A stretch of DNA of 32,443 nt from an uncultured Elusimicrobium sp. (lineage in GTDB: Bacteria > Elusimicrobiota > Elusimicrobia > Elusimicrobiales > Elusimicrobiaceae), in contig CACZKQ010000001.1 of the NCBI GenBank assembly GCA_902781765.1, forward strand, positions 1 to 32,443, given 5' to 3'. Within the stretch, counting starts at the first letter, position 1. The number at the start of each line of letters is the position of its first letter. A program made the position numbers and the translations under genes. The notes under the pieces are model-generated. The model did not search any database. It worked only from the letters and a program-made list of their open reading frames with translations, and had not been told where the DNA came from. Of this stretch, positions 7,153 to 8,207 are shown one piece after another.

Positions 7153-7221
7153 ACACGTCCCTGGGGACGTCATCCTGAATTTAGTTCAGGATCTCGTCGT
7201 ACTCCTAGGGACGTGTTTTTT
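7153..7221 (+). repeat. Fold-back repeat element, copy 1, with terminator-like 3' end
   Basis: An outer stem ACACGTCCCT (7153-7162) with AGGGACGTGT (7207-7216) encloses an inner hairpin ATCCTGAA (7172-7179) with TTCAGGAT (7185-7192). Six T follow the outer stem, so it may end transcription from the aminotransferase. Positions 7169-7194 match 8135-8160 at 21 of 26 bases, showing a dispersed repeat family. Confidence 0.65.
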
Positions 7222-7234
7222 CAATGAAAACTAC

Positions 7235-7263
7235 TTGTATATTTTTCCCTTTTTTCTTATAAT
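7235..7263 (+). promoter_or_regulatory. Strong promoter of the structured RNA
   Basis: TTGTAT (7235-7240), a 17-base spacer, then a perfect TATAAT (7258-7263). The expected +1 is about G7270, about 290 bases before the pilin ATG. Confidence 0.7.
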
Positions 7264-7289
7264 AATTCTGTCGTAAAGGAGATTTTATA

Positions 7290-7325
7290 TTGTCCGTCCG
7301 CAAACGGACAAAACTAAAAATTTGA
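7290..7325 (+). CDS. Possible 11-codon basic leader peptide
   Basis: AAAGGAG (7275-7281), eight bases, then a TTG-initiated frame MSVRKRTKLKI and TGA. Six of the eleven residues are R or K. It lies at the 5' end of the structured RNA and spans its first hairpin. A second frame from ATT at 7289 stays open to TGA at 7460-7462, but would need a start codon known mainly from infC. Either could be chance; the good ribosome site in an RNA that otherwise looks non-coding is the only support. Confidence 0.2.
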   Translation: MSVRKRTKLKI

Positions 7326-7499
7326 TTCTGTTTTTGGAACCGTATGAAAAATACGGGGAGTTTGCCAACGCAAACACCCTTTCACACCAAAAACAGCTGT
7401 TTAAGCACAAAATGAACGGACTAATTACCCGGTTGTTTTGTGCTGAATGTTTATCGTTTTGACGATAAGCTACGGCTGTTTTATTTGTGTCTGTGAAAG

Positions 7500-7525
7500 G
7501 GTCGCAAATAATGCGGCCGTTTTTT
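7500..7525 (+). terminator. Intrinsic terminator of the structured RNA
   Basis: A seven-pair stem 7500-7506/7512-7518 (one G-U) with loop AATAA, then G and six T. It lies 21 bases upstream of the pilin Shine-Dalgarno. A possible promoter overlaps it (TTGTGT 7485-7490, 16 bases, AATAAT 7507-7512), so the pilin need not depend on readthrough. Confidence 0.75.
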
Positions 7526-7559
7526 ATGGGCTCGTTAAGCAGATTCAAAGGGAGAAATT

Positions 7560-8048
7560 ATGAATAAAAAGAAACGAGGTTTTACCCTCATTGAACTGTT
7601 GGTCGTTGTGCTAATTATCGGTATTTTAGCCGCAGTGGCACTGCCTCAATACCAAAAAGCGGTAGATAAAGCTTCTTTTACTTGCACTATGACGATTCTT
7701 AAATCATTAACAGACGCACAAACTGTGGCCGCGTTGGAAAATGGCGGCTATCCGCCAAGCGGCCACTATTTTACATTTAACGATTTAAATATAACTATCC
7801 CGGTCGAAGATCAAAATTGTTTAGAAACCGATTTATGTAGTATAAAATGTAGCGGGAAACCTTATGGTATTGTTTTACGTAATACCGAAACTTGGGCAGG
7901 TTTTTACTTTTGGGCAGGCAGTTTAGAACGCTTAGTCTACAGAAAGGGAAACGCGCTTCCTTGGCAGTTACAATGCGTGTCCGCGCGTTGCAGAGAAACC
8001 GCCAAAGCCTTTGGAGCGACCGATTGCACCGGAGGTCTTTGTTGGTAA
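7560..8048 (+). CDS. Type IV pilin-like protein (major or minor pilin/pseudopilin)
   Basis: A 162-residue prepilin. The class III leader is MNKKKRG, cleaved before Phe8, followed by FTLIELLVVVLIIGILAAVALPQ with Glu at position +5 of the mature protein, as prepilin peptidase PilD requires. The helix continues through YQKAVDKA, the form familiar from Elusimicrobium pilin paralogues. The globular part has six or more Cys residues (C-rich segments near 43, 81-86, 91-95 and the final DCTGGLCW), consistent with disulfides. AAAGGGAG lies five bases before the ATG. No pilus assembly genes are nearby, so it is an isolated pilin gene. Upstream lies the structured RNA, a candidate regulator. Confidence 0.93.
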   Translation: MNKKKRGFTLIELLVVVLIIGILAAVALPQYQKAVDKASFTCTMTILKSLTDAQTVAALENGGYPPSGHYFTFNDLNITIPVEDQNCLETDLCSIKCSGKPYGIVLRNTETWAGFYFWAGSLERLVYRKGNALPWQLQCVSARCRETAKAFGATDCTGGLCW

Positions 8049-8128: not shown

Positions 8129-8207
8129 CTTGCTGTCATTCTGAACTTGTTTCAAGATCTAAACGGTACTGTGGAGGGATGCTGAAATAAATTCAGCATG
8201 ACACAAG
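8129..8207. repeat. Fold-back repeat element, copy 2
   Basis: The ends are inverted repeats: CTTG-C-TGTCAT (8129-8139) against ATGACA-CAAG (8198-8207). Inside are a hairpin-forming segment resembling copy 1 (8135-8160) and ATGCTGAA/TTCAGCAT (8179-8186 with 8192-8199, approximately). No coding capacity. It looks like a small dispersed palindromic or MITE-like repeat. Confidence 0.6.

Follow-up and report, generated by a model that had tools for sequence, protein, structure and literature searches.

The window (the whole stretch of DNA analysed, 32,443 nucleotides from an uncultured Elusimicrobium sp.) carries on its forward strand a promoter, a structured leader with a terminator hairpin and, behind it, the gene for a 162-residue type IV pilin-like protein. 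A structured leader upstream of a pilin had been proposed in an earlier note made from the sequence alone, and the product of the gene matches the N_methyl domain PF07963. The features of the locus are as follows.

7235–7263, + strand: promoter, TTGTAT, 17 nt, TATAAT (−35 at 7235–7240, −10 at 7258–7263), by sequence inspection
7275–7282, + strand: AAAGGAGA, SD-like 5′ segment, found in part of the copies
7292–7309, + strand: P0, optional 5′ hairpin GTCCGT/ACGGAC, in part of the copies only
7328–7337, + strand: S1, 5′ strand of P1 (CUGUUUUUGG), near-invariant; another, complementary sequence in type II
7340–7356, + strand: P1a hairpin, in which all six pairs covary
7360–7375, + strand: P1b hairpin, variable by comparison of copies
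7377–7386, + strand: VAR, hypervariable strand with partner VAR′ (own-partner test across 123 copies)
7387–7399, + strand: S2 (CCAAAAACAGCUG), shared by P1 (as 3′ strand) and the antiterminator (as 5′ strand), from covariation and the type I/type II comparison
7404–7444, + strand: P2 stem-loop, 8/8 basal pairs covarying
7422–7427, + strand: palindromic UAAUUA in the 9-nt P2 loop ACUAAUUAC (7420–7428), candidate site of kissing-loop dimerisation (palindrome test, class counts)
7449–7470, + strand: P3 hairpin, with one extra covarying pair (A7447–U7471 in the window; A-U or G-C in relatives)
7472–7487, + strand: S3 (ACGGCUGUUUUAUUUG), shared by the antiterminator (as 3′ strand) and the terminator P4 (as 5′ strand), from covariation and the type I/II comparison
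7492–7501, + strand: VAR′, strand inside the P4 apical loop, partner of VAR (own-partner test)
7503–7525, + strand: S4 with the U-run, forming the 3′ side of the intrinsic terminator P4 (local hairpin and covariation)
7526–7559, + strand: pilin leader after the terminator, with an SD near 7549–7555; many copies show pairing of its 5′ part with the start region
7560–8048, + strand: downstream gene, type IV pilin-like, N_methyl PF07963, 162 residues, ATG at 7560 (domain match)

The promoter had been called strong. Its two hexamers and 17-nt spacer are present and the −10 element is perfect, but the −35 element agrees with TTGACA at only three of six positions, so that the adjective rests on the −10 element. 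Among the 123 copies that could be parsed, a −10 match of at least 5/6 lies upstream of S1 in 112 (63% in shuffles) and a perfect match in 56 (46%, compared with 12% in shuffles). The three 5′ hairpins seen earlier (P0, P1a and P1b) are all present. The 5′ end comes in two promoter-proximal variants, one with an SD-like AGGAGG and a hairpin (the window, L011, L012 and L021) and the other starting near AGTAGTA. A short palindromic repeat, CCTGAACTTGNTTCAGGATCT, occurs at 7174–7194 and 8140–8160 of the window and at 34 places in its genome; in several pilin ORFs (e.g. L014, L020 and L009) it lies, seemingly in frame, within N-terminal extensions and resembles palindromic elements inserted into genes.

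The leader is a member of an apparently undescribed structured-RNA family. Searching the window's own genome at the DNA level located 20 sites, whose cut-outs share the same anatomy and almost always have a pilin downstream, and a covariance model built from 18 copies raised the count to 25 in this 1.44-Mb genome. With 61 genomes of relatives the leader was found in 34, all of the same genus, one genome carrying at least 39 copies; the 24 genomes of another family of the same order all lacked it. Throughout the phylum Elusimicrobiota it is present in 94 of 341 genomes and is confined to two families. A pattern scan of named genomes led to Elusimicrobiaceae and other Elusimicrobiota MAGs, with many sample names indicating rumen, faeces or gut. 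The phages and plasmids searched contained no match, and the pattern matches on viral contigs (seven) and those outside Elusimicrobiota were set aside as chance, since they showed no more than an inverted repeat of the S1/S2 kind or weak partial scores that did not exceed 26.6 bits. A mobile element was also rejected: copies within one genome are mostly ∼70–75% identical where they align over their length, and each precedes its own gene. At the gathering threshold the window, like the leaders of both subfamilies, matches no Rfam family (GEMM-I, GEMM-II, T-box, ROOL, GOLLD and OLE among them), in agreement with the initial impression that no known family was involved, and permissive filters returned only sub-threshold chance matches for both subfamilies. 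No published description was found in the open-access literature searched.

Covariation was assessed on 125 non-redundant copies, 123 of which were parsed. In two alignments fitted to the model, 96.6% and 95.9% of cells are paired and 40 and 37 pairs show two-sided changes; none of 500 shuffles reached as high a covariation. In a plain MAFFT alignment, not fitted to the structure, of the window and 93 copies from other records, the covariation score is 0.483, compared with 0.203 for shuffles and at most 0.149 for slid controls. The check proposed at the outset, compensatory change in related genomes, thus came out strongly positive, and a chance origin is excluded by the 25 copies in the genome together with the covariation.

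P1 pairs S1 (7328–7337) with S2 (7387–7396); both strands hardly vary, apart from G-C pairs replaced by A-U, and 99.7% of its cells are paired. P2 and P3 covary along the whole stem, and P3 is extended by one pair (columns 159–197) between the third base of a conserved GARY at the P2/P3 junction and the base after P3 (GC in 53 copies, AU in 38). A second conserved element, GGAA, follows S1. The local hairpin with a run of six T residues at 7500–7518 that had been taken for the terminator does exist; the helix that emerges from the comparison, P4, is larger, pairing S3 (from 7473) with S4 (to 7519), covarying in its upper part and holding VAR′ in its apical loop. The helix noted earlier at 7390–7400/7472–7482 is real and corresponds to S2/S3. 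It is paired in 98.4% of cells in the 94 type I copies, where it varies by G-U exchange and never changes on both sides, so that its covariation support comes from the comparison of type I with type II. Immediately 3′ of S2, the YY positions are almost always pyrimidines, opposite GG. S1 to S4 are near-invariant and the other stems drift freely. P1, the pseudoknot described below, the palindromic P2 loop and the membership of a multicopy, phylum-restricted family with two subfamilies had all been missed in the earlier note.

The helix seen previously at 7376–7386/7492–7502 proved to be VAR/VAR′, and it covaries in nearly every copy. VAR consists of 10 nt just 5′ of S2 and has 116 distinct sequences among the 123 copies; in 117 of these a copy's own VAR′ is the best partner of all 123. 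The helix has a mean length of 10.1 bp, a mean score of 24.2 with its own partner and 11.1 with crossed partners, and a duplex energy of −13.6 kcal/mol. The complementarity is specific to each copy. When P1 and P4 are formed VAR/VAR′ is a pseudoknot, and when S2/S3 is formed it is nested. The flanks are only moderately conserved, and comparison of the copies revealed no conserved ligand pocket around VAR. In L199 (252–466) a VAR′ of the L200/L113 type accompanies a different VAR and the private helix is broken, possibly through recombination between leaders.

A second subfamily, type II, was found upstream of another pilin in the window's genome. Its strands are S1 GAUUAUUUG, S2 CAAAUAAUCGUC and S3 GACG(A/G)UUAUU; with respect to S2, AACAGYCG in type I becomes AAUAAUCG in type II, and these C to U and G to A changes are matched in S1, S3 and S4. 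P1 is 8–9 bp long and S2/S3 reaches 10 bp in 13 of the 15 type II leaders, and P4 and VAR/VAR′ are retained as well. When strands of the two types are crossed, the mean pairing scores fall from 17.7, 20.3 and 15.5 to 9.1, 9.3 and 10.1; in this comparison L250 was mis-parsed and L255 pairs less well. The palindromic P2 hairpin is absent from type II; dimerisation would therefore be an add-on to the switch.

The apical loop of P2 varies from copy to copy and keeps its self-complementarity by covariation, as expected of a kissing loop. The loops include UAAUUA, UUAUAA, UCAUGA, UUCGAA, UUGCAA, CUCGAG, UCUAGA and CUAUAG, and the shorter GAUC, GGCC, AGCU and GUAC. Among 36 distinct P2 loops, 18 contain a palindrome 6 nt or longer (1.6 on average in shuffles, maximum 7) and 32 contain one of 4 nt or longer (12.1 on average in shuffles, maximum 21), and no 6-nt palindrome occurs in 59 P3 loops and 114 P1 loops. 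Several of the remaining copies have a GACG tetraloop at P2 instead; in the leaders of similar HsdR-like genes from two species, the loop is UAAUUA in L152 and GACG in L045. A single genome can contain at least six different P2 loop classes. From these loop sequences, selection of P2 for homodimerisation by kissing loops appears likely. GACG tetraloops have been implicated in retroviral RNA dimerisation (PMC516450).

An ORF in a suitable position close behind the terminator is present in 121 of 125 copies. About 79 of these ORFs are pilins (75 by motif and four evident by eye), and nearly all copies in this group lie 29–60 nt ahead of an SD-led ORF, the pilin ATG mostly following at 30–50 nt from the terminator. 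The ORF test covered one strand only, so the argument from downstream genes rests on distance and on gene types. The other targets are glycosyltransferases of families GT2 and GT8, an RgpF-like protein, an EcoRI-type methylase and HsdR-N-like proteins, with lipoprotein-like or outer-membrane-like proteins recognized by eye. Surface and DNA-modification genes are the kinds that bacteria usually switch by phase variation, and the target set of the leader resembles them. The window's genome encodes 68 N_methyl proteins. Many of the leaderless pilins inspected have tracts of T10–13 between −35 and −10, the usual sign of slipped-strand phase variation, and these promoters are probably phase-variable in this way. 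A T10–13-GATATATAATA promoter motif precedes several leaderless pilins (contigs C5, C11, C28, C31, C39, C55, C68, C102 and C136). No long homopolymer tract was found in the window's promoter, where the longest T run of the spacer is six.

In 30 of 72 pilin leaders, compared with 12% of shuffles, the sequence beyond the terminator pairs with the start region, and this may provide a second layer of control; general sequestration of the SD was rejected, SD pairing being no more frequent than in shuffles. An S2-like word, (C)CAAAAACAG, recurs in this region of pilin leaders (AAACAG in 17 of 72, with 1.8 expected) and could pair with a free S1, in cis or in trans; most copies are without it. Just before the SD of part of the pilins (e.g. 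L069, L120 and L081) stands CCAAAAACAGA, which resembles the 3′ strand of P1.

The S1/S2, S2/S3 and S3/S4 pairings are mutually exclusive and all three are kept in two subfamilies of different sequence; the leader thus has the anatomy of a terminator/antiterminator switch. As in terminator-type attenuators, S3, the 5′ strand of the terminator, has an alternative partner upstream, S2. The three-way junction described at first is the antiterminator state with S2/S3, which is not the lowest-energy fold: at full length the MFE structure matches S1/S2 plus S3/S4 in 111 of 123 copies. The P1 + P4 state surpasses the antiterminator by 5.5 kcal/mol on average with the pseudoknot left out, and for the window the values are −78.0 and −74.5 kcal/mol before the pseudoknot is added. 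Computed along the growing transcript, the energies favour the antiterminator in 102 of 119 copies when S3 has just emerged and in 117 of 119 once VAR′ has followed, the latter figure being overstated by a model without pseudoknots, as P1 with the VAR/VAR′ pseudoknot could rival the antiterminator at that point. At full length the terminated state is favoured in 114 of 119. That the helices form, exclude one another and stand ahead of surface genes is supported by comparison of the copies, and from this we infer how termination, readthrough, the direction of control and an effect of dimerisation would arise in the cell. Polymerase starting from the leader's own promoter would make S1 and S2, which pair as P1. 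On emerging, S3 could take S2 to give the antiterminator, reinforced by VAR/VAR′. S4 would then take S3 to form P4, with P1 re-forming and VAR/VAR′ persisting as a pseudoknot, and transcription would stop with an RNA of ∼256 nt. Transcription would run into the pilin gene if some signal of the cell, a protein or a partner RNA delayed the exchange of S3 to S4. Controlled readthrough had been suggested as possible earlier, and the strands shared between competing helices fit it. The trigger could be a metabolite, a protein or a partner leader RNA; ligand control is possible, but no core that would bind a ligand was recognized. The palindromic P2 loop probably pairs a leader with a second copy of itself, or with a paralogue having the same loop, and this pairing would either tune the choice between terminator and antiterminator or tie up the terminated RNA.

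The reading that we favour, with reasonable confidence, is that of a cis-acting transcription attenuator which works by strand exchange ahead of pilins and other surface or DNA-modification genes. It is harder to credit, and we put it forward as a speculation with the odds against it, that released leaders dimerise with nascent leaders of the same loop class, each keeping its private VAR/VAR′, and that through the resulting feedback on their own gene or class, RNA alone, without DNA rearrangement, would make the expression of a repertoire of some 60 pilins selective or mutually exclusive. A static leader, in which P1, the pseudoknot and the terminator form a rigid constitutive attenuator and S2/S3 is a by-product of the resemblance of S2 to S4, would account for P1 + P4 being the MFE fold in those 111 copies and for type I S2/S3 pairs varying by G-U alone. 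We nevertheless judge it improbable, since a 10-bp S2/S3 helix persists, in a different sequence, in 13 of the 15 type II leaders, the YY after S2 is held to pyrimidines opposite GG, and S1 to S4 stay near-invariant amid freely drifting stems.

The leader might instead act as a standalone structured RNA and assemble into homo-oligomers, as ROOL, GOLLD and OLE do, the terminated RNA being the functional product and the surface gene a habitual neighbour or a minor product of readthrough. Its own promoter and terminator, its extensive fold and a P2 loop that is either one of many palindromes or a GACG tetraloop would suit such a role, and natural homo-oligomers of RNA alone exist (PMC12286853). 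The tight distance to an SD-led ORF, the enrichment of pilins, the retention between types of three exclusive helices (the terminator included) that a static RNA would not need, and the lack of the palindromic hairpin in type II all speak against it, and we consider it rather unlikely. The related proposal of the earlier note, a standalone small RNA with the pilin driven by a promoter overlapping the terminator, fares poorly because the copies sit tightly 5′ of an SD-led ORF and no conserved second promoter between terminator and pilin ORF was seen by eye across the copies. Least probable is that the palindromes act in DNA, as methylation or recombination sites for phase variation, and not as kissing loops in RNA. 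Several loop words are typical of restriction sites (GATC, TTCGAA, CTCGAG and GGCC), a methylase gene is among the downstream targets and sister pilins have T tracts like those of phase variation; yet the palindrome occupies precisely the apical loop of an RNA stem with strong covariation, with none in the P1 and P3 loops, at least six loop classes share one genome, and several copies have GACG, which is not palindromic and is a known retroviral dimerisation loop (PMC516450).

The leader appears to represent an undescribed RNA family, and its comparative support is unusually strong. Small genomes of gut bacteria carry dozens of copies, and the family is tied to pilins, glycosyltransferases, lipoproteins and DNA-modification genes. 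A VAR strand that is hypervariable yet complementary, together with many self-complementary loops, suggests RNA recognition private to each gene copy. If true, a phylum of which hardly any members have been cultured would manage a large repertoire of surface proteins at the RNA level. Transcription attenuators and kissing loops are each familiar; what is new, to our knowledge, is that they are combined in a large set of paralogues with private helices.

With terminator/antiterminator riboswitches and attenuators the leader shares its 5′ position, its own promoter and the exclusive P1, antiterminator and terminator strands just before the SD. It differs from terminator-type members in several respects: it has no Rfam match and no recognized ligand pocket, its hypervariable helix is compatible with both states, it carries a palindromic loop, and there are up to about 25–40 paralogous copies per genome, each with its own VAR. 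GEMM (c-di-GMP-I/3′,3′-cGAMP) riboswitches control pilin genes in other bacteria and are similar in their position before such genes; the leader matches no GEMM model and differs in architecture and conserved sequence, as the earlier note had held. The 9-nt P2 loops, composed of two nucleotides, a 6-nt palindrome and one nucleotide at the tip of a long hairpin, are like the HIV-1 DIS, and the GACG tetraloops, likewise at the tip of a long hairpin, are like the gammaretroviral dimerisation hairpins (PMC516450). Unlike these, the present hairpin belongs to a bacterial leader with many palindromes in one genome; it is a candidate for dimerisation and no homology is implied. The large structured homo-oligomers of bacteria, ROOL (also from rumen), GOLLD and OLE, are comparable through this candidate dimerisation, whereas the leader is smaller, is unrelated in sequence and fold, and has a terminator switch and a gene in cis.
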